A stretch of 64,000 nt of DNA from Gilliamella apicola. Its GTDB lineage: Bacteria > Pseudomonadota > Gammaproteobacteria > Enterobacterales > Orbaceae. The notes under the pieces were generated by a model, which was not told the DNA's origin, did no database searches, and saw nothing but the letters and a program-made list of their open reading frames with translations. Position 1 is the first letter of the stretch, and each line of letters opens with the position of its first letter. The stretch lies in contig NZ_CP007445.1 of NCBI RefSeq assembly GCF_000599985.1, positions 1,364,001-1,428,000 of the forward strand. Reading direction: 5' to 3'. The position numbers and the translations under genes were made by a program. Of the stretch, positions 13,028 through 27,655 are shown piece after piece.

Positions 13028-13103
13028 GGGTTGTTAGCTCAGTCGGTAGAGCAGTTGACTCTTAATCAATTTGTCGCGGGTTCGATCCCCTCACAACCCA
13101 CCA
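13028..13103 (+). tRNA. tRNA-Lys (anticodon CTT)
   Basis: 76 bases including encoded CCA. The acceptor stem GGGTTGT/ACAACCC is perfect, the anticodon stem GTTGA/TCAAT encloses CTCTTAA with anticodon CTT, and the T-loop is TTCGATC. The T-stem reads GCGGG against CCCTC, leaving one C-U mismatch. The 3' end from 13081 is the left attachment site of the integrated element. Confidence 0.93.
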
Positions 13104-13105
13104 TT
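13081..13105 (+). repeat. attL, left attachment core
   Basis: 25-base segment forming the T-loop to CCA end of tRNA-Lys. It matches 27631-27655 at 24 of 25 positions (C at 13087 against T at 27637), after which similarity stops. Confidence 0.9.
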
Positions 13106-13215
13106 CATTAATCCATCCAAATTCAAAAACGTTCAAAAAACCTTTATATAACAAGCTTTCTAACTAATTTACTGTTTATCTAAGTTCAAGAAGATTTAGC
13201 GAAATTCAAACTTTT

Positions 13216-13235
13216 ATGTTATATATTATGTTATA
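13216..13235 (+). repeat. Probable arm-type integrase site, left
   Basis: ATGTTATATATTATGTTATA: two ATGTTATA units 12 bases apart. The same 20 bases with one change occur at 27556-27575 just inside attR in the same orientation. The position between attL and the integrase gene fits an arm site for the integrase's N-terminal domain. Confidence 0.5.
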
Positions 13236-13264
13236 CGCTCAAATATAACTTAAATTCGTATAAC

Positions 13265-14497
13265 ATGGCAAAGATTATAAAACCTCTAAATGATACTCAA
13301 ATCAAGTCAGCCAAGCCAAAGGGAAAGGATTTTACTTTATCAGATGGCAACGGTTTATATTTATTAATTAAATCTAATGGTTCTAAAATTTGGCGATTTA
13401 ATTATATTAGTCCTGATTCAAAAAAACGCACATTAGTTAGCTTTGGAAGCTATCCAGAAATCACATTATTTAACGCAAGACAAAAAAGAGATGAATATCG
13501 TTCTTTAGTATCTCAAGGAGTAGATCCACAACAGCATAAACAATCTATACAAAACCAATCAAAAAAAGAGAAAGATAATACATTTTATAAAGTGGCTGAA
13601 AGATGGCTTGAGCAACAGAACTCAAGAGATATCACTAGTGGAACAATTAGGCGAATAAAAAATTCATTTGTTAATTATATTTATCCTAGCCTTGGCGATA
13701 TACCCATCTCACAGCTAAAAGCAAAAGATTTTATTGAAGCTTTAAAACCTCTTGAATGTGCCGGTAAACTAGATACAGTTAAGAGGATATCACAACGAAT
13801 TAATAGAGTAATGACTTATGCTGTTAACAATGATCTGATTGAATATAATCCAGCTGGTAAAATAGGAGCTGTGTTTAAAGTTGCCCATAAGCAAAATATG
13901 CCCTCTTTACCACCTTCAGAGTTACCAAGAATAATGAAAGCCATTTCTTTGGCTAGTATTGAATTACAAACAAGATGCTTGATTGAGTGGCAACTACTTA
14001 CCATAACAAGACCAATTGAGGCAGTATCTGCATTATGGAGCGAAATAGACCTAAAAAATGAATTATGGACGATACCAGCAGACAAAATGAAAATGAGAAG
14101 AGATCATACTATCCCACTAAATAAACAGGCGATAAGGATAATTGAGATTATGAAGCCTATTAGCGGTCATGGTGAACATGTTTTTCCAACATTAAAAGCA
14201 CCTTTCAATAAACATATGAATAAAGAAACAGTCAATACAGCATTAAAACGAATGGGCTTTAAAGGTGAGTTAGTTGCTCATGGCTTTAGATCATTAGCAT
14301 CTACAGCATTAAATGAACATGGCTTTGATTATGATTTAATTGAAGTCTCGCTTGCCCACGTCGATAGGAATGCAGTAAGAGCAATTTACAATAGAGCAAC
14401 CTATTTAGATAAACGCCGTGACATGATGCAATGGTGGGGTGATTTTGTAGAGCAAGCTAGCCAAGGAAATTTATCACTGTCAGCAGCTCAAAAATGA
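13265..14497 (+). CDS. int: P4-type tyrosine integrase
   Basis: Catalyses integration and excision at tRNA-Lys. 410 residues with three parts: an N-terminal arm-DNA-binding domain (DUF4102 type, about 5-85, including SDGNGLYLLIKSNGSKIW-like strands), a SAM-like core-binding domain (about 100-190) and the catalytic domain. Catalytic residues visible are the first Arg in TRPIEA (about 243), HGFR (about 339-342) and the Tyr in AIYNRATY (about 373). It lies 162 bases from the tRNA and reads away from it, as usual for P4/CP4-type islands. A terminator follows. Confidence 0.95.
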   Translation: MAKIIKPLNDTQIKSAKPKGKDFTLSDGNGLYLLIKSNGSKIWRFNYISPDSKKRTLVSFGSYPEITLFNARQKRDEYRSLVSQGVDPQQHKQSIQNQSKKEKDNTFYKVAERWLEQQNSRDITSGTIRRIKNSFVNYIYPSLGDIPISQLKAKDFIEALKPLECAGKLDTVKRISQRINRVMTYAVNNDLIEYNPAGKIGAVFKVAHKQNMPSLPPSELPRIMKAISLASIELQTRCLIEWQLLTITRPIEAVSALWSEIDLKNELWTIPADKMKMRRDHTIPLNKQAIRIIEIMKPISGHGEHVFPTLKAPFNKHMNKETVNTALKRMGFKGELVAHGFRSLASTALNEHGFDYDLIEVSLAHVDRNAVRAIYNRATYLDKRRDMMQWWGDFVEQASQGNLSLSAAQK

Positions 14498-14531
14498 GCC
14501 TCTTGATTTTATTCATAGAACCAGATTTAAG

Positions 14532-14554
14532 CCAGTCAATTAGACTGGTTTTTT
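14532..14554 (+). terminator. Terminator after the integrase gene
   Basis: Perfect CCAGTC/GACTGG stem (14532-14537, 14543-14548), loop AATTA, then six T. Confidence 0.85.
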
Positions 14555-14805
14555 ATTACCTATTATTTAATAAATACTTTATATATATATTTTAATAACA
14601 CTAACAACACTAATAACATAATATAATTGATTTATATATATTTTTTTAAGTGTTATTAAAAGAAAGTAATAACATATATAACATTAAAACATGTCATTAG
14701 GTCGGATTTCAAATCCGTGCTGATTTCTAAATAAGAGCCTTTCCTTTGGCTAGCTAAATACCACCATTTAGTGGGATTTAGGTTAATGTTTTTTTATACA
14801 GTATA
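14555..14805. repeat. Repeat-rich control region (possible origin)
   Basis: No gene is seen. It contains a 19-base motif at 14598-14616 whose exact reverse complement lies near attR (27435-27453); a 13-bp inverted repeat pair TTTTAATAACACT (14590-14602) and its complement (14649-14661); a 20-base palindromic repeat at 14698-14717 shared with the primase gene; and a hairpin at 14754-14781. Clustered repeats between integrase and regulatory genes could be a replication origin or an excisionase binding region; no function is proven. Confidence 0.4.
14698..14717 (+). repeat. 20-base palindromic repeat, copy 1
   Basis: TAGGTCGGATTTCAAATCCG, containing a 7-bp perfect hairpin around a single C. The exact reverse complement lies at 18321-18340 inside the primase gene. 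It is a REP-like unit. Confidence 0.7.
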
Positions 14806-14814
14806 TGATATAAT
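14806..14814 (+). promoter_or_regulatory. Extended -10 promoter of the satellite leader
   Basis: TGATATAAT gives an extended -10 (TGnTATAAT) with a perfect hexamer. No good -35 is seen, which is normal for this class. Predicted start is near 14821, upstream of a structured leader. Confidence 0.6.
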
Positions 14815-14820
14815 AATGCT

Positions 14821-14931
14821 CAATAATGTTTAACTGACTAAATTAGTTACGTCTAGGGTAGCTCCTGAACATTCGTAACCCTAACGAATTGGCGTAACTT
14901 CTTCATTAGGGTTATTGTTTGAGGGAGACGA
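14821..14931 (+). ncRNA. Structured leader RNA, P4-CI/C4-like antisense immunity candidate
   Basis: The leader can form AGTTACG(14845-14851)/CGTAACT(14893-14899) enclosing ATTCGT(14871-14876)/ACGAAT(14884-14889). The loop sequence ACCCTA (14878-14883) can pair with TAGGGT upstream (14854-14859) or with TAGGGT downstream (14907-14912; extended arm TTAGGGTTA 14906-14914). One internal segment matched to two flanking targets is the seqA-seqB-seqC logic of the phage P4 CI RNA and of C4 antisense RNAs. Pairings are read from sequence; the regulatory role is inferred from the P4-like context. Confidence 0.5.
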
Positions 14932-15792
14932 ATGGCATTACCAGCATTAGAGTATTGTAATTTAACTAGAGCTAGTCGGTTATTAGGATGTGAAATTGAT
15001 GATTTAATTCACTGGTGGTTAATCGGAACTATAGAATTACATATATGCTTGGATGGCAAAAAATCTATTTTGGTTGGACAAAACAAAAGTGATAAACCTT
15101 TACCTATTGCTGAGGCTTTTGAAAAAATGTTTAAGGAAACGGGAGATATCACATCATCTAAATTATCAAAATTATACAAGATGAAATCATTTGATTATAG
15201 TAGATATCCTTCAAATCGCTGTTATCATTGTATTGCATATGGTTTGTGGAAAGTTTTGCCTAGCTCAGTTACCAGAGAATTGAAAGAAAGAAAAATAAGA
15301 TTAATTTCTGAATATCATTTTAAAAATAGTGAAAGAAAAGAGGGTGTAGCTCTCTTATCCCATGATGTTGATAATTTTTATTTAATATTCGACGAAATTG
15401 ATACAGAGGAAGGACTCGAAATAAATGTCGAAGATTTAATCATTACAAAAAGACATATTGATCGCTTGAATCCCGAAATAAATAAAAATTCACAAAATTT
15501 ACCTAATTGGATAAAACAAGATGAATTTGACGATAAACCTAATAATACCGATGAAAAAACGATACCATTAACTATAATGGCTGAAAAACAAGAAAGAATA
15601 CAGAATCCTGAAAGAATATTATGGCAAATTTATTTAAAAGAGCACTTTACTCTTATGTGGAATAATTCAAATTCGACAACATTAACAAACGAATTAAATT
15701 TTCTTGCTTCCAAGCATGGTTTTGGTGAAAAAATTTTTAATGAAAAAACAGTTTCAGGATGGATAAGTAGGTATAGTCTTAATAAGAGATAA
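14932..15792 (+). CDS. Unknown satellite protein, possible DNA-binding
   Basis: 286 residues, not recognised. The N-terminus (about residues 8-40; LTRASRLLGCEIDDLIHWW) looks like a MerR/AlpA-style helix-turn-helix in which a short helix recognises a site and a Trp pair packs the wing. The middle is acidic and lysine-rich. The C-terminal 55 residues (about 230-286) form a predicted helical block ending KTVSGWISRYSLNKR, again like a small DNA-binding helix pair. GAGGGAG lies five bases before the ATG. It is the first gene after the structured leader, so its expression is probably what the leader controls. Confidence 0.7.
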   Translation: MALPALEYCNLTRASRLLGCEIDDLIHWWLIGTIELHICLDGKKSILVGQNKSDKPLPIAEAFEKMFKETGDITSSKLSKLYKMKSFDYSRYPSNRCYHCIAYGLWKVLPSSVTRELKERKIRLISEYHFKNSERKEGVALLSHDVDNFYLIFDEIDTEEGLEINVEDLIITKRHIDRLNPEINKNSQNLPNWIKQDEFDDKPNNTDEKTIPLTIMAEKQERIQNPERILWQIYLKEHFTLMWNNSNSTTLTNELNFLASKHGFGEKIFNEKTVSGWISRYSLNKR

Positions 15793-15846
15793 ATAGTCTT
15801 ATTAAGAGTTTATCTATTTGAAATAAAAAGATTTAAATTCTAAACT

Positions 15847-15881
15847 CCTCATTAAGTTAAACACAAACGAACTTAATGAGG
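15847..15881 (+). promoter_or_regulatory. Hairpin sequestering the alpA ribosome-binding site
   Basis: Perfect 12-bp inverted repeat CCTCATTAAGTT/AACTTAATGAGG (15847-15858, 15870-15881) with an 11-base loop. The right arm contains the GAGG Shine-Dalgarno of the ATG at 15888, so folding would block translation. Confidence 0.6.
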
Positions 15882-15887
15882 TAAACA

Positions 15888-16067
15888 ATGCAATTAAACA
15901 CTCCAAAATACTATTCTCTTGATGAACTGGCGTTAATCTTAGGCTGTGCTAAGAACACATTACGCTATGACCCAAACTTCCCAAAAGGTTTAAAAGTAGG
16001 TAAACGTCGTGTCGTTTATGATATGGCTGAGGTTAAAACCTACTTAGAAAGCAACCGAGTACAGTAG
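15888..16067 (+). CDS. AlpA/excisionase-like small DNA-binding protein
   Basis: 59 residues. It begins MQLNTPKYYSLDELALILG and has the helix-turn-helix typical of MerR-like excisionases and AlpA proteins: SLDELALILGCAKNTLR, a basic KVGKRRVVYD wing and a final helix MAEVKTYLES. The Shine-Dalgarno GAGG lies six bases before the ATG, inside a hairpin. Such proteins in P4-like islands act as excisionase and as activator of integrase or replication genes. It is followed 10 bases later by a second AlpA-like gene. Confidence 0.8.
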   Translation: MQLNTPKYYSLDELALILGCAKNTLRYDPNFPKGLKVGKRRVVYDMAEVKTYLESNRVQ

Positions 16068-16077
16068 GAGGCTTTCA

Positions 16078-16365
16078 ATGTCATATTCAATCACACCTGA
16101 ACAACACAAAGCCATTAGGGATAAATACGGTATCCAATATGATCGCCTTGTTCGTGAAAATGAGAGATACAAAATTACTAGTATCGCCCGTTCAACAGCA
16201 TGGCAACTTGAGAAAGACGGTAAATATCCATTAAGAAAATCATTAGGTGCTAACTCATGCGGTTGGTCATTAGTGGAATTACTTCACTGGATCGACAATC
16301 CGCCAACAGTTGAAAAGATAAATCAACCGACTAAACGCCGAGGGTTTGCTAATGGGAGCTACTAA
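16078..16365 (+). CDS. AlpA family phage regulatory protein
   Basis: 95 residues. After an N-terminal extension (1-30) comes an AlpA-type domain: YKITSIARSTAWQLEKDGKYP, then LRKSLGANSCGWSLVELLHWI, where a helix-turn-helix is followed by a G-W wing. GGAGG lies 7 bases upstream of ATG. AlpA proteins of P4-like elements regulate excision and integrase transcription. Two consecutive AlpA-like genes suggest that one is the excisionase and the other a transcription regulator; which is which cannot be told. Confidence 0.75.
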   Translation: MSYSITPEQHKAIRDKYGIQYDRLVRENERYKITSIARSTAWQLEKDGKYPLRKSLGANSCGWSLVELLHWIDNPPTVEKINQPTKRRGFANGSY

Positions 16366-16366
16366 G

Positions 16367-16891
16367 ATGATTGTTAAACAAGATGAATTGAGTGTAATTA
16401 AATTTGATGGCATCGATGTAAGAATCATTACTCATTTGGGTGAACCTTGGTTTATTGCTAACGATGTGTGTTTGGCGTTAGAGCATAGCAATCCAACCAA
16501 AGCAATTAAATCATTAAATAGCCTTGAATTAATGACCCTAACTTTAAGTTATAGTCATTCAGGCAAAAGAGGCGGGGCAAGAAAATTGTTAGCTGTATCT
16601 GAATCAGGATTTTACAAGTTGATCGCTAGAAGCAGAAAAGCAATTCAACAAGGAACATTTGCTTATCGATTTAGTAACTGGGTATTTGGTGAAGTTATTC
16701 CAGCAATTCGCAAAACTGGTGCTTATGGTGTGCCTTGGGCTTTCTTGAATGATCATGCTAAACGTGAAAAAGAATATCTTATTGAATCAAGCAAAAGAGG
16801 ACGTAATTTAGAAGCTTGTAAAAAATGGAAAGCTAATTTGATAGCAGAAGAGCAAGCACTATGGAAAAAATATCAACCAGAATTGATTTAA
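16367..16891 (+). CDS. BRO-N domain protein, antirepressor-like
   Basis: 174 residues with an N-terminal BRO domain (about 1-110): VIKFDGIDVRIITHLGEPWF, NDVCLALEHSNP, the LLAVSESGFYKLIARSRK block and VFGEVIPAIRKTG. A short lysine-rich C-terminal helical tail follows. BRO-N proteins bind DNA and act in phages as antirepressors or transcription modulators. The start is set at 16367 because GGGAG lies 8 bases upstream and the preceding gene stops at 16365; an in-frame TTG at 16346 and ATG at 16352 lack better sites. Confidence 0.85.
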   Translation: MIVKQDELSVIKFDGIDVRIITHLGEPWFIANDVCLALEHSNPTKAIKSLNSLELMTLTLSYSHSGKRGGARKLLAVSESGFYKLIARSRKAIQQGTFAYRFSNWVFGEVIPAIRKTGAYGVPWAFLNDHAKREKEYLIESSKRGRNLEACKKWKANLIAEEQALWKKYQPELI

Positions 16892-17082
16892 TAAAAAAGG
16901 CAACTTATCACAGTTGCCCATATTCAATCACTAAAATCAATTAATTAAGGTATATTAATGTCAATAGAACTAATCAAAAGCATTGAACTTGTGCCAAAGC
17001 GTAACACGTTTAAAGCACGTTCTTATAATAACGCAGTGTTAAAAAAATGGGTAGATTTCGGAAGCGTTCGAGAGCATTTTAG

Positions 17083-17256
17083 TTATGCTTTTGGAGTGAT
17101 TCCTCTTGATTGCAATTCTTTTCTTAAAACTCTTTTTATCCAAGTTGCTAAATTTGTATCGCCATCTTTTGCAGCTTCTTCTTCTAGTTGTTGCCTAAAT
17201 TCTTCAGTTAACCGCATTTGGTATTGTGGTGATCTTTTTCCCTTTGGTGTTGACAT
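17083..17256 (-). CDS. Small ribbon-helix-helix (Arc-like) repressor
   Basis: 57 residues, the only minus-strand gene in the control region. The protein starts MSTPKGKRSPQYQMRLTEEF; the beta strand QYQMRL is followed by two helices (EEFRQQLEEEAAKDG and LATWIKRVLRKELQ), the Arc/MetJ layout also seen in YlcI/YnfO-type phage proteins. It is transcribed away from a pair of 13-bp repeats that could be its operators and is divergent from the downstream small-gene operon. It probably represses that operon and its own gene. A plus-strand reading frame over the same bases is a shadow. Confidence 0.75.
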   Translation of the reverse strand: MSTPKGKRSPQYQMRLTEEFRQQLEEEAAKDGDTNLATWIKRVLRKELQSRGITPKA

Positions 17257-17284
17257 GGTACTTACCCTATATTATTATAATTAC

Positions 17285-17315
17285 ATGGTAACGACCATTA
17301 TAATGGTAACGACCA
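17285..17315 (+). promoter_or_regulatory. Tandem operator-like repeats
   Basis: ATGGTAACGACCA occurs exactly twice (17285-17297 and 17303-17315), 18 bp apart; each has TGGT-4-ACCA dyad symmetry. A partial copy, TGGTACTTACC, lies over the start codon of the ribbon-helix-helix gene (17256-17266). Spacing and symmetry fit cooperative ribbon-helix-helix binding. Confidence 0.6.
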
Positions 17316-17389
17316 AAAAAGCAATCCCTCGAAGTGGTGGAACACTATCGAGGGATCTAACCACAATAACATTAAATGAGGTAATGATT

Positions 17390-17608
17390 ATGGCTAACCG
17401 CTATGATAGCGCACACCTACGTGCAAGACAATCCAAACTATATAAATTCTATGACCTTTCAACCGCTCAAGTTATCCAAACTACAGCAACAACCGAACGC
17501 CAAGCACGGAAAAATTTAGGCAAGCAATCTCTTATTTTTATTGCCAGAATTCAAATAACGCCAATCATTGAACGAGTCAGAACTTGGGGAGGTTACAGTC
17601 ATGAATAA
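17390..17608 (+). CDS. Small protein, possible Icd-like host division inhibitor
   Basis: 72 residues starting MANRYDSAHLRARQSKLYKF. The body, with a strand-rich YKFYDLSTAQVIQTTATTERQ followed by ARKNLG and LIFIARIQI, resembles in pattern the Icd-like/Ash proteins that P4- and P1-type elements carry. The similarity is by eye only. TGAGGT lies 7 bases before the ATG at 17390. It is divergent from the ribbon-helix-helix gene across the tandem operators and overlaps the next gene by 8 bases. Confidence 0.55.
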   Translation: MANRYDSAHLRARQSKLYKFYDLSTAQVIQTTATTERQARKNLGKQSLIFIARIQITPIIERVRTWGGYSHE

Positions 17609-17837
17609 TGCTCATAACCACCGATTAATAAATAATATTGAAACTAAACTAGCACAAGCACAAAGCATGATTAAGGTAATTTTGGATAATCACAATTATA
17701 AAGATGAGGGATTAGATGAGCCTTTTATTGATCATTGCGATACAGGTAATTTACTTTGGGCAGCTGGTGACTTAATCGAAGATGCTTACAAGGAACTATT
17801 AAATATCGATTTCAAGGGAGATGAGAATAATGCCTAA
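17601..17837 (+). CDS. Small helical protein of the satellite (paralogue 1)
   Basis: 78 residues, function unknown. Predicted to be two long helices: INNIETKLAQAQSMIKVIL, then LLWAAGDLIEDAYKELL. The start is set at 17601 because GGGAGG lies about 8 bases upstream. Its layout matches that of the next gene (INSKLDQANAIATLL then VLWSISDLITDSKKLF), so the two look like a tandem duplication. Operon with the division-inhibitor-like gene and the primase. Confidence 0.65.
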   Translation: MNNAHNHRLINNIETKLAQAQSMIKVILDNHNYKDEGLDEPFIDHCDTGNLLWAAGDLIEDAYKELLNIDFKGDENNA

Positions 17838-18051
17838 TATTTCTTTAGATGCAGTTGATACTATCAACTCTAAACTCGATCAAGCTAACGCTATTGCAAC
17901 CCTATTAATATGTGAATGTAATGAAGATACCAAATTAAGTAATGAGTTACGCTCATATGTGCTTTGGTCTATATCAGACTTAATAACTGATTCTAAGAAA
18001 CTATTTAGTAGTGAAACTGAATCTAAAGGTCGAAAAAATGAAAATCAATGA
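17830..18051 (+). CDS. Small helical protein of the satellite (paralogue 2)
   Basis: 73 residues, function unknown. It shares with its upstream neighbour a helix beginning IN-S/N-KL, an acidic turn, and a second helix beginning LW and containing DLI. AAGGGAG lies 10 bases before the ATG at 17830; an in-frame ATG at 17821 is too close to it. It overlaps the neighbour by 8 bases and the primase start by 14, so translation is coupled. Confidence 0.65.
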   Translation: MPNISLDAVDTINSKLDQANAIATLLICECNEDTKLSNELRSYVLWSISDLITDSKKLFSSETESKGRKNENQ

Positions 18052-20398
18052 AATTACAACCCAAGCAGTAGATAAATGGCAATCAATTTTTAATTCATTA
18101 GGTATTGTGGTGGGCAATGGTAAGCATTGTCCTTGCCCTGTCTGCGGTGGTAAAGATAGATTTAGGTTTGATAATAAAAATGGGCGCGGTACTTATATCT
18201 GCAATCAATGCGGTAGCGGTGACGGCTTAAATCTTATCAAAAACTATTATCATTGTGATGCTAAAGAAGCTAGTAGTAAAGTAGCGGAATGCTTAAATTT
18301 AAGAAACACTTCCACAAACTCGGATTTGAAATCCGACCTACAAGACAACATACCAGAGAATCCTGTATGTAAAAAGGTTAAGTATTTGCTATCTAAAGCA
18401 ATATTAGGTCAATCGGATTACCTCACTGAAAAAGGGTTAACCTTTGATTTACCCTTGTTAGATAACGGGCGCATTTTTGCGCCTATGCTGAATCTTCATA
18501 ATGAATACGCAGGTGGTCAATTTATCGAACCTGACGGCAGTAAGCACTTAATGAAAGGTTCAAATAAGAAAAGTGCTTTTATATTAGTGCGCTCAGTTTT
18601 GAGCAGACCTGCCGAGGTGTGCGCAAATTTGCTCGCACATAATGAAATTATTATCTGTGAGGGGTTGGCTACAGGGATATCAATAGCAGAATTCCGCCTG
18701 CAGTCTATTGTTATATCCGCCATTGATGCAGGCAACCTTATTCATGTAGCTAAAGGCATTCGTGAGTTAAATCCTACTGCTAAAATCATTATCGCAGGTG
18801 ATAACGATATTGGTCAAAGCCCTAATACGGGCTTAGCTAAAGCAATAGAAGCGTCTCAAGCGGTAAATGGTTATTACTCCGTTCCTGATACAGATTATAA
18901 ATGTGATTGGGATGATTATAGGCAACAATTTGGACTTGAAAAAGTTAAGCAATATTTTGATAGCAATATCAAAAATTCACTTAAGGGAAGTTTTTCCGAA
19001 ATTAAACTAAAATCTATACCCGACTTATCACAGATGCAAGCCAGTCAGAAAGCTGATGTACTCATAGAGCATTATGAGAATAATCTATCCTTAGATATGG
19101 TGACAAATGAGGTATATATCTATAAAGATAATGTTTGGCAAATGATTTCTGAAATGGATCTTAAACGTGAACTAGTCCAGTTGTTTCGACAATCAAATGC
19201 TCATTATTCAGAAAAAGGCATTAAATCGACCATTGATACAATGAAGCTTCAAATACCATTAAAAAACGAACCAGCGAGAAATTTAATAGGTTTTAAAAAC
19301 GGTGTATTTGATCTTGATACTCGGACTTTTAAATCTCATTCAAAAAATCACTGGTTACAATCAATTAACAATGTTAATTTTATTGATAGTGTATCGAATG
19401 AAAATTTAGAGCATCATGCGCCTAATTTTTATCAATGGTTGTCACGTTCCGCTAAAAAAGACACTATCAAGATGGATGCTATAAAAGCAGCATTATATAT
19501 GATATTGGCTAATCGTTATGACTGGCAATTATTTTTAGAAGTAACAGGCGCAGGTGGTAGCGGTAAAAGTGTCTTTGCTGATATTGCCACAATGTTAGCT
19601 GGTAAAAACAATACAGTATCCGCCAATATGGAAGCCTTAGAAAAACCAAGAGAACGGTCGCTTATTGTTGGGCAGTCGTTAATTATTTTACCGGATCAAG
19701 CAAAATATATTGGTGAGGGTAACGGTATTAAGGCAATTACGGGTGGTGACGATGTGGCGATAGATGAAAAATACAAGAAACCTTATTCAACTAAGATACA
19801 GGGGGTTATATTAGCGATTAACAATAACCCGATGACATTTAGCAATGATGACGGGGGAATATCTAGGCGGAGGGTAATCTTTCACTTTGGCGAGCCAGTT
19901 CCTGCTAATGAACGCGACCCAATCCTAAAAGATAAAATACGTGGTGAATTGTCTGTGATAATCCGTCATTTATTCAATTATTTTGAAGATGATAACAAAG
20001 CTAAATTACTGTTAATTGAGCAACAAAAATCATCTGAGGCAATTGAAGTTAAGCGATTAACCAATCCACTTATTGATTTTTGTAGTTATCTCTTTGCAAC
20101 CGATAAACCTGACGGCATGATGATAGGAAAATACTCAACGCCAGTACAATTTAAGAGATTTCTATATCATGCCTATATTACATTTATCGAAAACAATAAT
20201 CTAAAAAATCCGTTATCACTTAGGAACTTTGTTAATGCTCTACCTGCTGCAATGAAAGAGTACGGCTTGGAAGTCATTATAAGGGCAAGGCATGGTGAGG
20301 GACGTAGGACTAACTTACATCTTGATTATGACAAGTGTAATGACTGGTTCCCTGATGCTGCGTTAGAAGAAAGTAATATTAACTATAATAAAAGGTAA
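18038..20398 (+). CDS. P4-alpha-like primase-helicase
   Basis: Replication initiator of the satellite. 786 residues in three parts: a zinc-ribbon primase domain (about 20-70) with CPCPVCGG and CNQCGSGDG; a Toprim region (about 195-300) with IIICEGLATG and IIAGDNDIG; and a superfamily 3 helicase (about 470-690) with Walker A VTGAGGSGKS (about residue 508) and the downstream GGDDVAIDEKYK and NNNPM blocks of D5-type ATPases. The linker at about residues 88-103 carries the 20-base palindromic repeat. ATG 18038 is preceded by AAAGG. In P4 the alpha protein also binds the origin, so the origin should be near. Confidence 0.93.
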   Translation: MKINEITTQAVDKWQSIFNSLGIVVGNGKHCPCPVCGGKDRFRFDNKNGRGTYICNQCGSGDGLNLIKNYYHCDAKEASSKVAECLNLRNTSTNSDLKSDLQDNIPENPVCKKVKYLLSKAILGQSDYLTEKGLTFDLPLLDNGRIFAPMLNLHNEYAGGQFIEPDGSKHLMKGSNKKSAFILVRSVLSRPAEVCANLLAHNEIIICEGLATGISIAEFRLQSIVISAIDAGNLIHVAKGIRELNPTAKIIIAGDNDIGQSPNTGLAKAIEASQAVNGYYSVPDTDYKCDWDDYRQQFGLEKVKQYFDSNIKNSLKGSFSEIKLKSIPDLSQMQASQKADVLIEHYENNLSLDMVTNEVYIYKDNVWQMISEMDLKRELVQLFRQSNAHYSEKGIKSTIDTMKLQIPLKNEPARNLIGFKNGVFDLDTRTFKSHSKNHWLQSINNVNFIDSVSNENLEHHAPNFYQWLSRSAKKDTIKMDAIKAALYMILANRYDWQLFLEVTGAGGSGKSVFADIATMLAGKNNTVSANMEALEKPRERSLIVGQSLIILPDQAKYIGEGNGIKAITGGDDVAIDEKYKKPYSTKIQGVILAINNNPMTFSNDDGGISRRRVIFHFGEPVPANERDPILKDKIRGELSVIIRHLFNYFEDDNKAKLLLIEQQKSSEAIEVKRLTNPLIDFCSYLFATDKPDGMMIGKYSTPVQFKRFLYHAYITFIENNNLKNPLSLRNFVNALPAAMKEYGLEVIIRARHGEGRRTNLHLDYDKCNDWFPDAALEESNINYNKR
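18321..18340 (-). repeat. 20-base palindromic repeat, copy 2 (within primase)
   Basis: Exact reverse complement of 14698-14717. In frame it encodes part of the linker SDLKSDL between the zinc-ribbon and Toprim domains, so insertion did not break the gene. Confidence 0.7.
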
Positions 20399-20402
20399 CA
20401 AA

Positions 20403-20723
20403 ATGAAAAGACTAATTGATACTAAAATTATGGCGATTGCATTAGATGAAATGTTGCATGATCCTATTAAAATAAATCAAATAACAAACGAATTTAGCAA
20501 TCTAAAAAAGTATGTGCAAAACCAGCGTAAAATTTTGGATAGGAAACGAACTAATAATGAGTTAACTGAATTAGAGGAATATTTTATCTTCCCCGCTTTA
20601 GATGATGCTTATTTTTATTTATTAGATAGCCTAAAAAGTAACGCCAGACCTAGTGGCGAAATGAAGAGAATTGTTAGTGATATACCAAGTAGAATTGATT
20701 ATTGGCTAATACAAATAAAATAA
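20403..20723 (+). CDS. Unknown small protein after the primase
   Basis: 106 residues, not recognised. Predicted mostly helical (LEEYFIFPALDDAYFYLLDS in the middle), neutral to basic, no membrane segment. It begins four bases after the primase stop and is probably cotranscribed. Position at the end of the replication operon and before the head module suggests a replication or switch role, but nothing in the sequence proves it. Confidence 0.6.
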   Translation: MKRLIDTKIMAIALDEMLHDPIKINQITNEFSNLKKYVQNQRKILDRKRTNNELTELEEYFIFPALDDAYFYLLDSLKSNARPSGEMKRIVSDIPSRIDYWLIQIK

Positions 20724-20949: not shown

Positions 20950-22107
20950 ATGAAAAAACTTATTGAATTACGTCAATTAAAAGCGACCAAAGTAGCAGAA
21001 ATGCGCTCAATGCTTGACAAAGCAGAGCAAGAAAACCGCAGTATGACACCAGAAGAAAAGACACAATTTGATACTATAAAAGCAAAAGTTGAAGAGTTGA
21101 ACACTGAAATTTCTAACTATGAAACTTTAGCCAATGAAGAGCGAAGTTTAGCAGATAAGAGCAAACCAGTAGATAAAAAGCTTACTAACGAAGAATTACG
21201 CAACTATATCCGTACTGGTGAGGCTCGTTCATTGTCTACTGCTGTACCTGCTGATGGTGGTTATACAGTAATACCTGAATTAGACAAAGAAATTATGCGT
21301 CAGTTATCTGATGAATCAGAAATGCGTGCAATTTGTACCGTTAAAAAAATCGGCTCAAATGAATATAAAAAGTTGGTATCAGTTGGTGGTGCGATAGTTA
21401 ATCACGGCGAAGAGGCAACGGCACGAACAGAAACGGCTACACCTAATCTTGAAGAAGTATCAATTAAGTTATATCCAATTTACGCTTATCCTAAGACTAC
21501 CCAAGAAATTCTAGATTTTAGTGATTTAGATGTTTTGAGTTGGTTAACGGATGAAATCAAAGATACTTTTGTCGAAACAGAAGAAATTGATCTTATTAGT
21601 GGTAATGGAACCAAGAAAGCTAAGGGATTTTTATCATATCCACAAGCGGTACAATCTGATAAAGAGCGTCCATTTGGCACTTTAGAAAAAATGACAGTAA
21701 CAGCTATCACCGCAGACAGTTTAATTGATTTACTTTTTAAACTTAAAAAGAAATATCGTAAAAATGCTGTATGGACAATGAACTCAAATACTGCAGCAAC
21801 ATTACAAAAACTTAAAAATGGTAATGGCGATTATATTTGGCGTGATGGCTTGAAAGCTGGCGATCCCGATATGCTTTTAGGTAAACCTGTTCATTATTTA
21901 GAAAATATGAATGATAAAGGTGCTGTTGTTGCAGTTGGTGATTTTAAACGCGGTTACTATATTGTTGATCATGAAACAGGTGTAAGAACTCGCCCAGATA
22001 ACATCACCGAACCAGGATTCTATAAAGTCCATACTGATAAATATCTCGGTGGTGGTTTAGTCGATTCTAACGCTATCAAAATCTTAGAAGTATCTGCTGG
22101 TAAATAA
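20950..22107 (+). CDS. HK97-type major capsid protein
   Basis: Builds the satellite's own icosahedral head. 385 residues. The N-terminal 1-100 region is a charged coiled coil (a delta scaffold domain, removed by protease in this family), then the HK97 fold begins near STAVPADGGYTVIPE (about 96-110), with N-arm, E-loop and P-domain (YAYPKTTQEILDFSDLDV, TEEIDLISGNG). The C-terminal axial domain ends VDSNAIKILEVSA. It is the first gene of the head operon. A weak ribosome-binding site precedes the ATG. Confidence 0.92.
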   Translation: MKKLIELRQLKATKVAEMRSMLDKAEQENRSMTPEEKTQFDTIKAKVEELNTEISNYETLANEERSLADKSKPVDKKLTNEELRNYIRTGEARSLSTAVPADGGYTVIPELDKEIMRQLSDESEMRAICTVKKIGSNEYKKLVSVGGAIVNHGEEATARTETATPNLEEVSIKLYPIYAYPKTTQEILDFSDLDVLSWLTDEIKDTFVETEEIDLISGNGTKKAKGFLSYPQAVQSDKERPFGTLEKMTVTAITADSLIDLLFKLKKKYRKNAVWTMNSNTAATLQKLKNGNGDYIWRDGLKAGDPDMLLGKPVHYLENMNDKGAVVAVGDFKRGYYIVDHETGVRTRPDNITEPGFYKVHTDKYLGGGLVDSNAIKILEVSAGK

Positions 22108-22138: not shown

Positions 22139-22693
22139 ATGGATAAGAAAAAATATGAAATCAGAAGTACCGAAGTCGTTAGGGACGATACTAAGCTGGT
22201 CGGTTATGTGGTGAAGTGGAATAGCCGTTCACAATTGATATGGGGTGAATTTTATGAGCAGTTCGCACCAAAAGCATTTAGCCAATCATTGAGTAATAAT
22301 CCTGATATTCGCGCTTTATTTGAACATGACCACAAAGCCCTATTAGGTCGGACTATCTCTAATACCTTAATTCTGGCTGAGGATGATATTGGTTTGCGAT
22401 TTGAATTAACACCGCCAGACACTCAATTAGGGCGTGATTTGCTCGTTAGCGTGGATCGTGGTGATATTCGTGGTATGTCATTTGGTTTTATAGCCACAGC
22501 TGAATCATGGGATTTTAATCAAGAGCCATGTTTAAGAACGGTAAATACTGCTGAACTATTTGAAATAACTGTCACGAGTATGCCGGCATACCAAGAAAGT
22601 GATATACAAATAGCCAAACGTCCTATGCTTGAAGCTAAAGCCAAATTTCAGCCTGATTTAAGTAAAGCATGGCTTGACCTTATGGAGTTATAA
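22139..22693 (+). CDS. HK97-type prohead protease
   Basis: Serine protease that removes the scaffold part of the capsid protein during head maturation. 184 residues with the U35 family motifs: GYVVKWNSRSQLIWGEFYEQ, catalytic His in FEHDHKALLGRT (about 60-71) and catalytic Ser in GDIRGMSFGF (about 105-114). It lies between capsid and portal, reversed relative to many HK97-like phages, where the protease comes before the capsid gene. Confidence 0.92.
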   Translation: MDKKKYEIRSTEVVRDDTKLVGYVVKWNSRSQLIWGEFYEQFAPKAFSQSLSNNPDIRALFEHDHKALLGRTISNTLILAEDDIGLRFELTPPDTQLGRDLLVSVDRGDIRGMSFGFIATAESWDFNQEPCLRTVNTAELFEITVTSMPAYQESDIQIAKRPMLEAKAKFQPDLSKAWLDLMEL

Positions 22694-22695
22694 AC

Positions 22696-23895
22696 ATGGG
22701 ATTATTTAGCCGTAAGAAGAAAGAGCAACGAAGCATGACGGTGGACGAGTTAATCTCTTACCTTGGCTTGTCTAATACAAATTCGGGCGAATATGTATCG
22801 CCTAGCTCAGCCGAGGCATTACCTGCCGTGATGAATGCGGTCACGGTAATCAGTGAAGCTGTTGCCTCAATGCCGTGTTATCTCTACAAGCTCAACAAAA
22901 AAGGCGAACGTGAACGCATATCAAGCCATCCTGTTGAATATTTGCTAAATGAGATGCCAAACACCAAACAGACACCTTACCAGTTTAAACGCACGATGAT
23001 GCGCCACTGTTTATTAGGTGGTAATGCTTATGCGGTCATTCACTGGGGTAATGACGGGCGACCTAGTGGGCTTGAAAGCTTCCCACCTTATGCTGTTACT
23101 CCAAAACGATTGGGTAATGGGCGTTATGCTTACTCCATTATTGATGAGGATGGTAATATCACAAATTACTTACAAGATGAGGTATTACATTTACGTTATG
23201 CGAGTGATGACGGTTTTCTCGGACGTTCTCCTGTTACTATTTGTCGGGAAGCGATAGGATTAGGACTTGCCCAGCAACGCCATGGCTCATCTATCATGAA
23301 AAACGGACTAATGGCAAGTGGTTATGTCTCTATGGCTGAATGGATGGATGATGCAAAAGGGAAAAAAGCCTTAAATGCATTAGAACGTTACAAAGGTGCA
23401 AAAAATGCAGGTAAAACACCAATACTTGAAGGAGGAATGAAATACGAGCAGTTAGGCATGAGCAATCAAGATGCCGAGTGGCTGCAAAGTAGACGGTTTA
23501 CTATTGAGGACATAGCTCGAATATTTAACATTAGCCCGATGTTTCTACAAGAATATTCCCATAGTTCATATAGTAACTTTTCAGAAGCTACACGTTCATT
23601 TTTAACTTTAACGCTTAGACCATGGCTTACCAATTTTGAACAGCAATTAAAAGACGCATTAATGATTGATATTAACAATGATAAAAGCCGTTATCTAATT
23701 GAGTTTGATACATCGGACTTGATGCGTACCAGCCCAATAGATCGCTTTAACAGCTATAACATAGCGATTAAATCAGGAGTAATGAATCCTAATGAAGCAA
23801 GATTAAGAGAGGGTTTACTACCTTATGAGGGCGGAGAAGAATTTAGCCAAGCGTGGAAGCAAACAGTAGAAGTTAAAAAGGATAATGCTGAATGA
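22696..23895 (+). CDS. HK97-type portal protein
   Basis: Dodecameric ring at the head vertex through which DNA enters. 399 residues with the family start (short basic MGLFSRKKK, then NAVTVISEAVASMPCYLYK at about 50-68) and the clip/stem blocks (NIAPMFLQEY-type, here ARIFNISPMFLQEYSHSS near 275, and NPNEARLREGLLPYEGG near 362). It follows the protease by 2 bases and overlaps the adaptor gene by 4 (ATGA). Confidence 0.93.
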   Translation: MGLFSRKKKEQRSMTVDELISYLGLSNTNSGEYVSPSSAEALPAVMNAVTVISEAVASMPCYLYKLNKKGERERISSHPVEYLLNEMPNTKQTPYQFKRTMMRHCLLGGNAYAVIHWGNDGRPSGLESFPPYAVTPKRLGNGRYAYSIIDEDGNITNYLQDEVLHLRYASDDGFLGRSPVTICREAIGLGLAQQRHGSSIMKNGLMASGYVSMAEWMDDAKGKKALNALERYKGAKNAGKTPILEGGMKYEQLGMSNQDAEWLQSRRFTIEDIARIFNISPMFLQEYSHSSYSNFSEATRSFLTLTLRPWLTNFEQQLKDALMIDINNDKSRYLIEFDTSDLMRTSPIDRFNSYNIAIKSGVMNPNEARLREGLLPYEGGEEFSQAWKQTVEVKKDNAE

Positions 23896-24224
23896 TTATA
23901 GGGCGATTAAGACAGCGCATTATCTTACAGAAATTTGAGAGCTACCGAGATCCATTTGGTCAAATTATTAAAGGATGGAAAGATATTGCAAACGTATGGG
24001 CTGAGGTTAAAGCAGTAACTGGTAAAGAGCTTATGTTATCACAGCAAGAGATGAGCGGTACCACTATAAGGGTTTATATTCGCTACCGTAAGGATATTGA
24101 TACCACTTGGCGGATTAAGTACCTGATAGCTGGCTCACAATATTTAAATATTAAAGCTGTATTACCTGACGCCAAAAGAACTTATTTAGAATTGTTATGT
24201 GAGGCTGGTTTAAACGATGGCTAA
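23892..24224 (+). CDS. Head-tail adaptor (SPP1 gp16/HK97 gp7-like)
   Basis: Stopper/closure protein placed under the portal. 110 residues beginning MIIGRLRQRIILQKFESYRD, the classic start of the head-closure family, followed by a WKDIANVWAEV block and a small beta barrel. It overlaps the portal stop by 4 bases and the following connector gene by 8. Present although no tail genes exist, which fits a satellite that docks a helper's tails onto its own heads. Confidence 0.88.
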   Translation: MIIGRLRQRIILQKFESYRDPFGQIIKGWKDIANVWAEVKAVTGKELMLSQQEMSGTTIRVYIRYRKDIDTTWRIKYLIAGSQYLNIKAVLPDAKRTYLELLCEAGLNDG

Positions 24225-24510
24225 TATTACCTTACAAGAAGTTAAGTTACATTGCCGTATTGATGACAGTGACACCTTAGAAGATAGCTTACTTCAAATC
24301 TATATAGATGCTGCTCTTGAAGTTTGTCAAAAGCATATAGGAAAATCATTTGATATACAGGAATTCACGCCAGCAATCAAAGCAGGTTGTCTTATGTATA
24401 TAGCTCATCTATATGAGAACCGAGAAATGGTTAGTACTAACACCGTAAGCGAAGTGCCGTTAGCTATTTCTTCATTGTGGAGTATCTACCGTGACCCAGC
24501 TATCTATTAG
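24217..24510 (+). CDS. Head-tail connector protein (gp6/gp15-like)
   Basis: 97-residue protein beginning MANITLQEVKLHCRID; all-helical, with LLQIYIDAALEVCQKHIGKS and a VPLAISSLWSIYRDP ending, as in the HK97 gp6 and SPP1 gp15 connector family. It overlaps the adaptor gene by 8 bases and is followed by the HNH gene. Confidence 0.88.
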   Translation: MANITLQEVKLHCRIDDSDTLEDSLLQIYIDAALEVCQKHIGKSFDIQEFTPAIKAGCLMYIAHLYENREMVSTNTVSEVPLAISSLWSIYRDPAIY

Positions 24511-24514
24511 GTGA

Positions 24515-24886
24515 ATGATGCCAATACAACCATTAAAGAGATGTTCATATCCTAATTGTCGTAACCGTGTTAAATCAGGGCGATGTAATGAGCATAGAAG
24601 AGATAAACAGCAAGATAAAGCACGAGGAACAGCAGCACAACGAGGCTATAATCATCGATGGCAAATATATCGAGCTGAGTACCTTAGGCATAACCCACTA
24701 TGCAAGATGTGTAATGATAAAGGATTACTCACTCCTGCTACTGTGATAGACCATATCAAACCGATTGAGGATGGACAAAGTGATCCTCTCTTTTGGCAAG
24801 CAAGTAATCATCAACCATTATGCCGTGATTGTCATAGCTATAAGACAAGAGTAATCGATAAACGAGGATTTGGGTCATCTTCATAA
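24515..24886 (+). CDS. HNH endonuclease
   Basis: 123 residues. After a basic N-terminus with a CSYPNC..CNEH zinc-type cluster (about 10-27), the HNH core reads CKMCNDKG, VIDHIKPIEDG and NHQPLCRDCHS (about 62-108), including two CxxC pairs. In HK97-like and cos-packaging phages an HNH protein next to terminase helps cut DNA at cos. Two ATGs begin the frame; either could start it. Confidence 0.9.
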   Translation: MMPIQPLKRCSYPNCRNRVKSGRCNEHRRDKQQDKARGTAAQRGYNHRWQIYRAEYLRHNPLCKMCNDKGLLTPATVIDHIKPIEDGQSDPLFWQASNHQPLCRDCHSYKTRVIDKRGFGSSS

Positions 24887-25028
24887 TAAAGACAACTGAT
24901 AGCAGTCCTCAGATATGATGAGTGGGTAGGGGGGAATGTTCAAAGAAATTCAAAAAGCTAAAAGACCACCACCCTCCTCAAATTTTTATGCACAGTGATT
25001 TTTTAGAAAGTAGAGAGAAAACAATAAT
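24887..25028 (+). other. Short gap before terS with G- and C-rich runs
   Basis: 142 bases without a gene. A G-rich stretch (24921-24934, GTGGGTAGGGGGGA) and a C-rich one (24967-24979, CACCACCCTCC) stand out in AT-rich surroundings. Position between HNH and terminase genes makes it a candidate packaging site (cos), but no direct proof is seen. Confidence 0.3.
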
Positions 25029-25373
25029 ATGAAAGCACCTAAATATTTGGATAAATTGGCAAAGGAGCAATGGAAACTTAGAGCAGACCAGTTAGCTAGT
25101 CGTGATGATATTCAGCCTGCCGATTGGACTAATTTAGAATTGTTTTGTGTTAATTATTCTATGTACCGTAAAGCAATGGAAGATATTGCAAAGCGTGGAT
25201 TTTCAATTGTTAACTCACAAGGTACTGAAAGTCGCAATCCTGCACTTAGTGCAAAGTCAGAAGCTGAAAAAATCATGATTAAAATGGCTTCATTGCTTGG
25301 CTTTGATCCTGTAAGTCGTCGTAAGAATCCAGTTGAAGCGAATGAGGAAGATGAGCTTGACCGATTGGCATAA
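25029..25373 (+). CDS. terS: P27-family small terminase subunit
   Basis: Recognises packaging DNA and feeds it to the large subunit. 114 residues with the P27/terS_2 layout: KAPKYLDKLAKEQWK, a helix with LASRDDIQPADWTNLELFC (about 27-45), NSQGTESRNPALSAKSEAEK and the LLGFDPVSRRK end block. The C-terminus is acidic, as usual. It overlaps the start of terL. Confidence 0.9.
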   Translation: MKAPKYLDKLAKEQWKLRADQLASRDDIQPADWTNLELFCVNYSMYRKAMEDIAKRGFSIVNSQGTESRNPALSAKSEAEKIMIKMASLLGFDPVSRRKNPVEANEEDELDRLA

Positions 25374-27024
25374 TTACGCATTATCGGTTAAAAATGGTGA
25401 TATTCCTGCTTGTAAACGCTTAAAACAGGCAGTAAACCGCTATTTTATTGATTTGGATAATCCTAATTATTATTTTGATAGTGAAATTGTCACTAAATTT
25501 GTTTCATTCTCAAAAGTCTGTCCACACGTTAAAGGTCATTTAAGAGCTAAACCTATTGTGCTTGAGCCGTGGCAGCAATTCTTATTTGCTAATCTGCTGG
25601 GATTTAAGCACATTAAAACAGGATTACGCAAATACCGTAGTGCTTATGTGCAAGTACCGAGAAAGAACGCAAAATCGACTACAGCAGCAATTCTTGCTAA
25701 CTGGTTTTTAGTCATGGAAAAAGGTCAACAAGATATCTATACTGCAGCTGTTAGCCGTGATCAAGCTCGAATTGTGTTTGATGATGCTAGACAAATGGCG
25801 ATACTTAGCAAGCCAATAAAGAAAAGAGTCACCATTCAACAACATAAAATCATTAATCCTAAAAGTAATAGTATATTAAGACCACTTGCCTCAAAAGCTT
25901 CAACGATAGAGGGAACTAATCCTAGTTTATCAATTGTAGATGAATACCACTTACACCCTGATAATGGCGTTTATTCAGCTCTTGAATTAGGAATGGGAGC
26001 AAGACCAGAGGGCATTTTATTTGCTATCACCACCGCTGGCAGTAATACCATATCAGCCTGTAAACAGCATTACGATTATTGTTGCCAGATTTTAGCAGGT
26101 GACGAAGTTAACGAATCGCAATTTGTGCTTATTTACGAATTGGACGATGAAAATGAAATTGATAACCCTGATTTATGGATAAAAGCGAATCCTAACCTTG
26201 ATATATCGGTTGATAGGGTCGCCTTAGAGGACACGATTAAGAAAGCCAGAGGTATACCCTCCCAGTGGGTCGAAATGCTCACTAAACGCTTCAATATTTG
26301 GTGTAATGGAGCTACGCCTTGGGTAAATACTGGTAGCTGGGTTGCGTGTAAGGCTGATTATGCAGAAGATGATTTAAAAGGGTTAGATTGCTATGCTGGA
26401 TTAGATTTATCATCTACTAGTGATATTACTAGCGTCTGTTATTCGTTTCCTTTTGAAACCGAGGTAAGATTATTAACACGGCATTACATTCCTGAATATC
26501 AGCTTACTAACGTGGCTAACAAAAATAGGGAAATGTACCGTAAGTGGGTTAATCAGGGCTGGATACGAGTAACTAAAGGCGACTGTATCGATTATGACCA
26601 AATTCGTGATGATATTTTAAAAGACAGTGAGCAATTTAATATCAAATTAATTGGCTTTGATGTGTGGAACGCCACACAATTGAGAACGCAGTTACAAAAT
26701 ATCGGCTTAGACGTTGAGCCGTTCCCACAAACATACGCACGTTATAGCCCAACATCGAAAACTGCTGAGGTATTTATTAGTCGTAAACGGATTAAACATA
26801 ATGGCGATCCTGTTTTGGCTTGGGCTATAGGTAATGTAGTAATGGAAACAGATGCAAATGCCAACATCAAGCCCAATAAAAAGAAAGCAGCCAACAAGAT
26901 AGACCCTGCAGTTGCTTTCCTCATGTCATTCGGTACCTACTTACTTGAATATGGCGAGATAGATATCAACCTATCAGATGAACAAAAACAAGTATTAGAC
27001 AATTTTAAAGGGATTGTTTTGTAG
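25351..27024 (+). CDS. terL: Large terminase subunit TerL
   Basis: ATPase-nuclease motor that packages the satellite genome. The 557-residue protein has a Walker-A-like VPRKNAKSTTAA (about 106-117), Walker B-type SIVDEYHLHP (about 191-200) and a RNase H-like nuclease domain with CYAGLDLSSTSDI (about 347-359), metal Asp residues and GFDVWNATQL (about 435-444). Two earlier in-frame starts (TTG 25333, ATG 25342) exist; MSLTDWHNYAL at 25351 is the usual start. It overlaps terS by 23 bases and is the last gene of the head module. Confidence 0.93.
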   Translation: MSLTDWHNYALSVKNGDIPACKRLKQAVNRYFIDLDNPNYYFDSEIVTKFVSFSKVCPHVKGHLRAKPIVLEPWQQFLFANLLGFKHIKTGLRKYRSAYVQVPRKNAKSTTAAILANWFLVMEKGQQDIYTAAVSRDQARIVFDDARQMAILSKPIKKRVTIQQHKIINPKSNSILRPLASKASTIEGTNPSLSIVDEYHLHPDNGVYSALELGMGARPEGILFAITTAGSNTISACKQHYDYCCQILAGDEVNESQFVLIYELDDENEIDNPDLWIKANPNLDISVDRVALEDTIKKARGIPSQWVEMLTKRFNIWCNGATPWVNTGSWVACKADYAEDDLKGLDCYAGLDLSSTSDITSVCYSFPFETEVRLLTRHYIPEYQLTNVANKNREMYRKWVNQGWIRVTKGDCIDYDQIRDDILKDSEQFNIKLIGFDVWNATQLRTQLQNIGLDVEPFPQTYARYSPTSKTAEVFISRKRIKHNGDPVLAWAIGNVVMETDANANIKPNKKKAANKIDPAVAFLMSFGTYLLEYGEIDINLSDEQKQVLDNFKGIVL

Positions 27025-27328
27025 ATTCATAAGTAAATATAAAAATAATAGATACATATACTATAATTAACAATCCTATAGAAATAGCTTCTTTTTTCAC
27101 ATGATTTCTTGATGTAATTTTATTATAAGCATGAAATCCCCATATCCCCCAAACAGTAAGAATTTCAATGATAAAAATAGGAATGCTGCTAAATCCTACT
27201 TGTTTAAATGTAAAGTAGTAAAACATAATTGTAAGAGCTATACTTCCAGTTGAACTATTTACTATTTCAACAATGTCTGAACATATTTTAGGTAACCCTT
27301 TTATTTGTTCTTTAAATGGTTTTATCAT
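27005..27328 (-). CDS. Small membrane protein, satellite cargo candidate
   Basis: 107 residues, not recognised. Two or three hydrophobic segments (about 28-42, 48-66, 82-100) with a basic loop between them and a short basic N-terminus. AAGGA lies about 8 bases before ATG. It reads opposite to the head module and overlaps the end of terL by 20 bases, next to attR, the position where satellites often carry accessory genes such as anti-phage or superinfection-exclusion functions. Function cannot be assigned. Confidence 0.6.
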   Translation of the reverse strand: MIKPFKEQIKGLPKICSDIVEIVNSSTGSIALTIMFYYFTFKQVGFSSIPIFIIEILTVWGIWGFHAYNKITSRNHVKKEAISIGLLIIVYVSIIFIFTYESTKQSL

Positions 27329-27630
27329 TTTTCATTCCTTATATCAAAAATAATCATTTTATTTTACTATGTCATTAACAACATACAACACTATAATAAC
27401 ACGAGATTAATTTATTGATTATTAATAACAAATTTTATTAGTGTTGTTAGTGTCATAAAATCACAAAAAAGAAGTTTTCTTTTAACTTTTTACTTTATTG
27501 TTAATAGATGATATATTACATATCGGTGATAAGTTGAGTGGGTCATCAATATTTAATGTTATACATTATGTTATATGTTTAGCATATTGTTTTTATAATA
27601 TCATTACATATCAATATGTTATCATTATAA
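27329..27630. repeat. Right-end control region of the satellite
   Basis: About 300 bases without a credible gene. It holds TTATTAGTGTTGTTAGTGT (27435-27453), the exact reverse complement of 14598-14616; a related motif ACAACACTATAATAAC (27385-27400); and an arm-site-like repeat at 27556-27575. A 63-codon frame here is not supported because it runs through attR. Confidence 0.45.
27556..27575 (+). repeat. Probable arm-type integrase site, right
   Basis: ATGTTATACATTATGTTATA, one mismatch from 13216-13235, same orientation, 55 bases inside attR. Confidence 0.5.
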
Positions 27631-27655
27631 TTCGATTCCCTCACAACCCACCATT
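27631..27655 (+). repeat. attR, right attachment core
   Basis: Second copy of the 25-base tRNA-Lys 3' end with a single difference from attL; beyond it the sequence is no longer similar. It marks the element's right boundary. Confidence 0.9.

Follow-up and report, generated by a model that had tools for sequence, protein, structure and literature searches.

A probable capsid-forming phage satellite without tail genes in the bee-gut symbiont Gilliamella

The DNA analysed here (the window) is a stretch of 64,000 nucleotides from Gilliamella apicola (contig NZ_CP007445.1, positions 1,364,001 to 1,428,000, forward strand), and the host DNA belongs to a single 3.14-Mb contig of the genus Gilliamella (Orbaceae). 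It carries an element of 14.55 kb at window positions 13028-27655, which was found with ARAGORN and a repeat search to be inserted in a tRNA-Lys(CTT) gene. With a probability of roughly 0.88, this element is an intact capsid-forming phage-inducible chromosomal island (cf-PICI) in Gilliamella that would build its own heads and use the tails of a helper; we infer its induction, its particles and the identity of its helper. Because a head and a packaging machine are encoded but no tail, the element very probably borrows its tails from a helper virus. It is filed as a cf-PICI since its gene content, gene order, size and relatives match the description of this kind of satellite, which supports the reading given in a preliminary description made from the letters of the window. 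The kind itself is already known, and what appears to be new is the host group. In a published overview, cf-PICI hosts are 'primarily' Enterobacteriaceae, Pasteurella, Morganellaceae and several Firmicutes, and the hosts named there do not include Orbaceae (PMC10803314). The literature searched, which lay outside the primary cf-PICI papers, gave no earlier account of phage satellites from Gilliamella. A mobile family of tail-borrowing satellites would now be placed in the bee-gut symbionts Gilliamella and Frischella, and the bee gut is a simple community in which the ecology of phages and bacteria is studied.

A cf-PICI is defined by having its own capsid, protease, portal, head-tail connectors, TerS, TerL and HNH endonuclease (PMC10690885). 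All of these are present in the element as a complete HK97-type set for head formation and packaging on the forward strand, in which every gene scores above its Pfam cut-off and the PHROGs assignments concur. The set starts with the major capsid protein (20950..22107; PF05065, E 4.8e-64), the S78-type head maturation protease (22139..22693; PF04586, E 1.7e-45) and the portal protein (22696..23895; PF04860, E 1.7e-95). Two neck genes follow, encoding a head-closure protein (Hc1; 23892..24224; PF05521, E 8.8e-25; phrog_25), which is proposed below as a tail-docking part on account of its similarity pattern, and a gp6-like head-tail adaptor, the connector (Ad1; 24217..24510; PF05135, E 1.3e-12; phrog_40). 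The set is completed by an HNH endonuclease (24515..24886; PF01844, E 9.6e-9; phrog_144), the small terminase TerS (25029..25373; PF05119, E 2.7e-24) and the large terminase TerL (25333..27024; PF03354 and PF20441). The preliminary description had given this same order, and Pfam and PHROGs bear it out; both of its neck genes are present, but their names had to be corrected to those used here.

With Pfam and PHROGs, no tail, lysis or baseplate families were found among the proteins of the element at the thresholds used, in agreement with what had been read from the sequence. Tail or lysis genes of the same element just beyond its borders, which had been named as a sign of a decayed prophage, can be ruled out among the 44 flanking open reading frames (ORFs) of at least 80 aa that made up the scan. 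In PHROGs these ORFs matched 23 families, of which 17 have no description and none is labelled tail, lysis or head, and in Pfam the 25 listed of 68 families were all cellular or general.

The element is bounded by a 25-nt direct repeat, the left att core at 13081..13105 (+) and the right one at 27631..27655 (+), with 24/25 identical positions and a spacing of 14,550 bp, close to the published mean cf-PICI size of 14 kb (PMC10803314). Even when as many as six mismatches were tolerated, the 64-kb window gave no third match to this 25-mer. The left copy lies at the end of the tRNA-Lys (CTT) gene (13028..13103, +; ARAGORN), which is the integration target, and the gene for a tyrosine integrase comes next (13265..14497, +; PF00589, E 1.5e-27; PF13356; PF22022). 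As in other cf-PICIs, site-specific integration is accompanied by an integrase and an AlpA-type regulator or excisionase (16078..16365, +; PF05930, E 1.8e-12; phrog_2790). A P4-type primase-helicase (18011..20398, +; PF08273, PF13362, PF08706, PF19263 and PF03288; phrog_2249) contains Zn ribbon, Toprim, D5_N, DUF5906 and Pox_D5 domains. The att repeats at tRNA-Lys, the integrase and the P4-alpha-like primase-helicase had all been recognized from the letters; of the AlpA regulators claimed there, one is clear, whereas the other, a weak AlpA/HTH_17-like small protein (15888..16067, +), stays below the PF12728 and PF05930 cut-offs.

By its similarities, the head module can be assigned to a satellite lineage, because TerL, capsid and portal are close to those of satellites and far from those of the listed ordinary phages, which is consistent with the separate clades published for cf-PICI capsids (PMC11389934). 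In a TerL search of genome contigs, the best 80 of 146 loci were used (six from Orbaceae and 74 others). The six Orbaceae loci are 91-95% identical, and all 74 named loci outside the Orbaceae (Enterobacterales, Aeromonas and Pasteurellaceae) fall between 71.9 and 76.8%. Among 50,697 phage records, five have a TerL in the 60-80% band, of which four are listed, namely vB_KppS-Ant (16.5 kb), the Pasteurella records Pmp7 and Pmp8 (10.7 and 15.3 kb) and a Klebsiella record of 106 kb; below this band, the highest listed identity is 35.5%. Similarly, four phage records match the capsid at 61.6-67.4% in this band (next listed 38.7%), and four match the portal at 65.7-67.9% (next listed 33.4%). These phage-record comparisons concern the listed matches, and a short match between the identity bands is possible. 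The group medians of TerL, portal and capsid to satellites outside the Orbaceae are 62-76%, compared with at most 39% for listed ordinary phages; for the capsid, they are 62-70% (range 48-74%), and by pairwise identity its lineage lies apart from phages.

The best-surviving of the rival explanations, although improbable, is that of a decayed prophage that has lost its tail and lysis genes and kept its head module by chance. The head genes are of phage type, and decay is seen in the group: three of the 44 Orbaceae genomes (G004, G038 and G040) retain only terminase fragments, the element of Pra-s52 has its capsid and integrase frames split, and that of Gilliamella Choc4-2 has a large deletion. 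However, Enterobacterales and Pasteurellaceae have the same set without tail genes, with TerL identities of 72-77%, and so does E. coli PE15. In addition, the protease, portal, capsid and other packaging genes tested are open and under purifying selection. Pairwise dN/dS values between the window and the Orbaceae relatives L116, L120 and L121 are 0.019-0.173 for the packaging genes (leaving out the HNH gene of L120, whose frame was called short). The primase gave 0.070-0.136, and the integrase, compared with two relatives, gave 0.117-0.197. The relic capsid genes with a disabled protease or portal that the preliminary description had considered as evidence of decay are thus not what was found. 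Recurrence, selection and distance from ordinary phages together lead to the rejection of a decayed prophage.

Within the Orbaceae, the cf-PICI is spread in a patchy way, with an open TerL frame at at least 91% identity in 7 of 44 genomes. Seven further Orbaceae TerL matches at 29-35% sit in HK97-type head modules, one of them in a satellite-bearing genome (G011). In nine of the 44 genomes, the end of tRNA-Lys lies 178-213 bp from the next host gene (SMR), and these short gaps, close to the 190 bp that excision would leave in the window, are empty sites; in the other genomes, the two genes are farther apart, on separate contigs or unresolved. Both the element and the empty tRNA-Lys sites that had been proposed as a check are therefore found in the clade. 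The element of Frischella japonica is located at tRNA-Lys as well, with att cores 14,579 bp apart and a 95% identical integrase, and that of Pra-s52 is at the same tRNA-Lys as the window element. The elements of Choc4-2 and wkB178, with a 58% identical integrase, adjoin tRNA-Met, and the tRNA-Lys site of wkB178 is empty. The Choc4-2 element (L118, 7285-15976) has no match to the primase, capsid, protease and portal but retains the connector, HNH, TerS, TerL and the motif described below, and is either a product of decay or a capsid-less satellite with its own packaging specificity.

A 43-nt conserved motif (24970..25012, +) is located between the HNH and TerS genes and is a candidate cos site. 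It agrees with the family consensus at 36/43 positions and is found at the same place in 76 of the 80 named relatives, where the best match is 31-43 of 43. Three of the remaining four loci (L021, L027 and L037) are cut off by a contig end within or close to TerS or TerL, and the fourth (L050) lacks the motif and has 132 bp of sequence ahead of TerS. As controls, three shuffled windows gave top scores of 25-26, and the window outside the element gave 24-25. In tests that depend less on the loci behind the consensus, a 28-nt version with at most two mismatches was found once each in exactly seven of the 44 Orbaceae genomes, which are the seven with an open terminase, and its reverse had no match in these 44 genomes. 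Two exact patterns of the motif retrieved 9 and 78 stretches from 2.9 million viral contigs; across the viral loci collected, overlaps included, TerS is 52-145 bp downstream on the same strand in 93 of 95 motif sites, and the other two run into the end of the locus.

The position of the motif was also compared between vB_KppS-Ant and an integrated copy (L054) in K. pneumoniae ATCC 13883, which we take to be the same strain as DSM 30104. The ends of the vB_KppS-Ant record flank a 69-bp stretch that is absent from it and contains the motif. The authors, who sequenced this phage by Nextera XT, regard it as an induced prophage and give its identity to a region of the isolation host, K. pneumoniae DSM 30104, as more than 99% (PMC8006926). 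Its ends would fit a linear molecule cut at the motif, with a few tens of bases lost per end. HNH endonucleases, TerS and TerL act jointly at cos sites, and the position and conservation of the 43-nt motif make it likely that it is one. The 43-nt signature can be used as a DNA probe to find elements of this kind, both in genomes and in viromes.

In the proposed life cycle, a helper siphophage would derepress the element, which would excise and replicate with its own primase and build its own HK97-type heads. HNH, TerS and TerL would then cut the concatemers at the cos-like 43-nt motif and fill these heads, after which the head-closure ring would dock helper tails of the HK97-siphophage type and the helper would lyse the cell.

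A second alternative, less probable than a decayed prophage, is a satellite with tail functions hidden in its unassigned genes, which would be less dependent on a helper. The 286-aa, 106-aa and 107-aa proteins of the element have no family match in Pfam or PHROGs, and one Klebsiella relative carries a tape-measure gene. On the other hand, these genes are short and differ from one relative to another, so that a tail operon could not be accommodated in them. The 286-aa protein (14932..15792, +) is encoded between integrase and AlpA. The 106-aa protein (20403..20723, +) occupies a variable slot before the capsid gene and differs among relatives; its match to a 'virion structural protein' is insignificant (E 0.11). 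The 107-aa protein (27005..27328, -) is in a variable slot behind TerL, where relatives have other genes. Tail-less head-cluster fragments occur in gene transfer agent-type systems too. A gene transfer agent or domesticated particle packaging host DNA, to which the grouping of a cf-PICI capsid with a gene transfer agent capsid in a published tree (PMC12846349) might also point, is the least credible alternative in view of the intact integrase, the att repeats and empty sites, the own primase, the patchy spread (intact in 7/44 genomes) and the sequence-specific motif at the packaging locus.

Several points weigh against the interpretation as an intact cf-PICI with helper tails. The element is known here from sequence, its excision, particles and transfer being predicted, and its relation to the prototype EcCIEDL933 is taken from the published description. 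Some of its Orbaceae relatives show decay or partial deletion. The motif in the window differs from the consensus at 7/43 positions, and the consensus was derived from the same loci that were later scored, so the motif scores are not independent. A helper prophage in the same genome was sought through five tail families (PF04883, PF10145, PF09718, PF04984 and PF13550), none of which has a match in the host genome; other tail families were not searched. There is no second PF04860 portal in the host genome either, that of the element being the sole match. Eight integrase-family matches above the cut-off indicate that other elements may exist in this genome, and HK97-gp10-type tail genes are present in 6/44 Orbaceae genomes. 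For EcCIEDL933, mobilisation by HK106 and HK446 has been described, and none of the 17 prophages of its own strain is reported there to have mobilised it at a detectable frequency (PMC11389934).

The neck genes were compared in 55 loci that have all eight packaging genes and a TerL of 65-85% identity. The median identity to the window is highest for TerL (74%), portal, TerS and capsid (69% each), lower for protease and connector (60% each) and HNH (58%), and lowest for head closure (43%). Towards satellites outside the Orbaceae, the Hc1 of the window has enterobacterial medians of 43-45% and a Pasteurellaceae median of 31%. It is 42-48% identical over about 80% of its length to the listed HK97-type siphophages of enterobacterial and other hosts (20 of 142 records), including Morganella IME1369_02, Proteus Pm34, HK140 and mEp235, and up to 45% identical to Gilliamella prophages; the best listed ordinary phage for the connector is at 36%. 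Among the listed matches, Hc1 is therefore the packaging gene nearest to ordinary phages and the only one for which the gap between satellites and phages closes. A head-closure match is absent in 8/74 rows, representing seven distinct elements: Gilliamella App6-5, Pantoea rodasii, Candidatus Pantoea formicae, Serratia oryzae, Erwinia psidii, Xenorhabdus khoisanae and Yersinia aleksiciae. In six of these, portal and connector abut or overlap (-4 to 3 bp), and in P. rodasii they are 55 bp apart. The portal of App6-5 is 99.7% identical to that of a sister element, whereas its connector is just 66-67% identical to those of other Orbaceae elements. This contrast, the similarity pattern of Hc1 and the elements without head closure suggest that neck genes are exchanged.

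From this pattern, Hc1 could tentatively be seen as an exchangeable part that couples the heads of satellites to the tails of their helpers, and the satellites that lack it look as if they obtained even the closure ring from a helper. Small, fast-evolving proteins may look alike for other reasons, which counts against such a coupling, as does the observation that the connectors of the elements lacking Hc1 form no one clade; a single shared cassette without head closure is ruled out by the same observation. If the coupling were true, the choice of helper could be read from one small gene, and the pattern makes the question of which phage lends the tail a testable one.

Among the other early genes, a Bro-N antirepressor (16346..16891, +; scanned from 16349; PF02498, E 8.3e-16; phrog_2593, anti-repressor) follows the AlpA gene. 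A 57-aa Arc-like protein (17083..17256, -; phrog_228, Arc-like repressor, E 1.2e-5) is encoded on the strand opposite to the other early genes and is a candidate for the repressor of the satellite. It is 83% identical in Pasteurella Pmp8 (L083:10139-10315, -) and 68% identical in the Arsenophonus nasoniae plasmid pArsFIN15 (L290), and is far better conserved there than the adjoining genes. The slot between integrase and AlpA holds a protein of 263-286 aa in the window, in L116-L121 and in E. coli PE15 (L125), and the window protein is 16-40% identical to those of these seven relatives; the proteins of the window, L121 and E. coli PE15 resemble one another at the start and vary at the C-terminus. 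PADLOC gave nothing convincing as defence cargo in the element, the top match being DndF for the 106-aa protein at 15.6 bits, which was judged to be due to chance.

The element can be compared with several known systems. P4-like satellites use the capsid of the helper and have no capsid genes of their own; the element has a full head set and only the primase type in common with them. DNA similar to the terminase genes of vB_KppS-Ant is present in 473/5,426 complete E. coli genomes, and one of the 473, PE15, has the gene order of the window in an element beside fis. There, an integrase, an unknown protein, HTH/AlpA, small genes, a P4-family primase and a small gene precede capsid, protease, portal, head closure, connector, HNH, TerS and TerL, and no tail gene is annotated; the location beside fis instead of tRNA-Lys, the host and the accessory genes differ. 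Pasteurella Pmp7 and Pmp8 share TerL at 73%, and the head set of Pmp8 is complete, but integrase and primase are behind the terminase, with the integrase on the opposite strand. The cf-PISP satellite-plasmids of Vibrio also have their own head genes and no tails, but they exist as episomes that carry plasmid genes and lack an integrase, unlike the integrated window element (PMC13230959).

Phage vB_KppS-Ant (LR881103; L082), described by its authors as a filamentous ssDNA phage that represents a novel genus (PMC8006926), resembles a cf-PICI in having its own head and packaging set, an integrase, an AlpA-type regulator and a primase. Its major capsid protein (67%), portal (66%) and TerL (72%) are similar to those of the window in the same, circularly permuted order, and there is no tail operon. 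It differs from the window element in a tape-measure gene of its own behind TerL, encoding 765 aa (L082:2036-4333 and L054:11698-13992; phrog_2854, E 2e-176). The protein has no Pfam match; over 71% of its length, it is 54-63% identical to tape measures from siphophages of Klebsiella and Escherichia, which are longer. A full-length copy is found only in L082 and L054 among 299 loci, apparently from one strain. This Klebsiella satellite might set the tail length, which would be new to us.

Two circular records stand beside these integrated elements. The plasmid pArsFIN15 of Arsenophonus nasoniae (NZ_CP038627.1; 15,977 bp) encodes a satellite-type capsid (67%), protease, portal, connector, HNH, TerS and TerL (77%), together with a replicase-family protein and a HigA-type addiction module; it has no integrase or head-closure match, and its top match to the 43-nt motif is just 27/43. 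It resembles the satellite-plasmids of Vibrio, for which the authors state that no example outside Vibrio was found (PMC13230959). The other record, 'plasmid unnamed2' of K. pneumoniae FDAARGOS_1323 (L291, NZ_CP069874.1), is a circle of 15,995 bp that contains a whole integrase-bearing satellite with a 43/43 motif, and is probably an excised satellite circle that was deposited as a plasmid.

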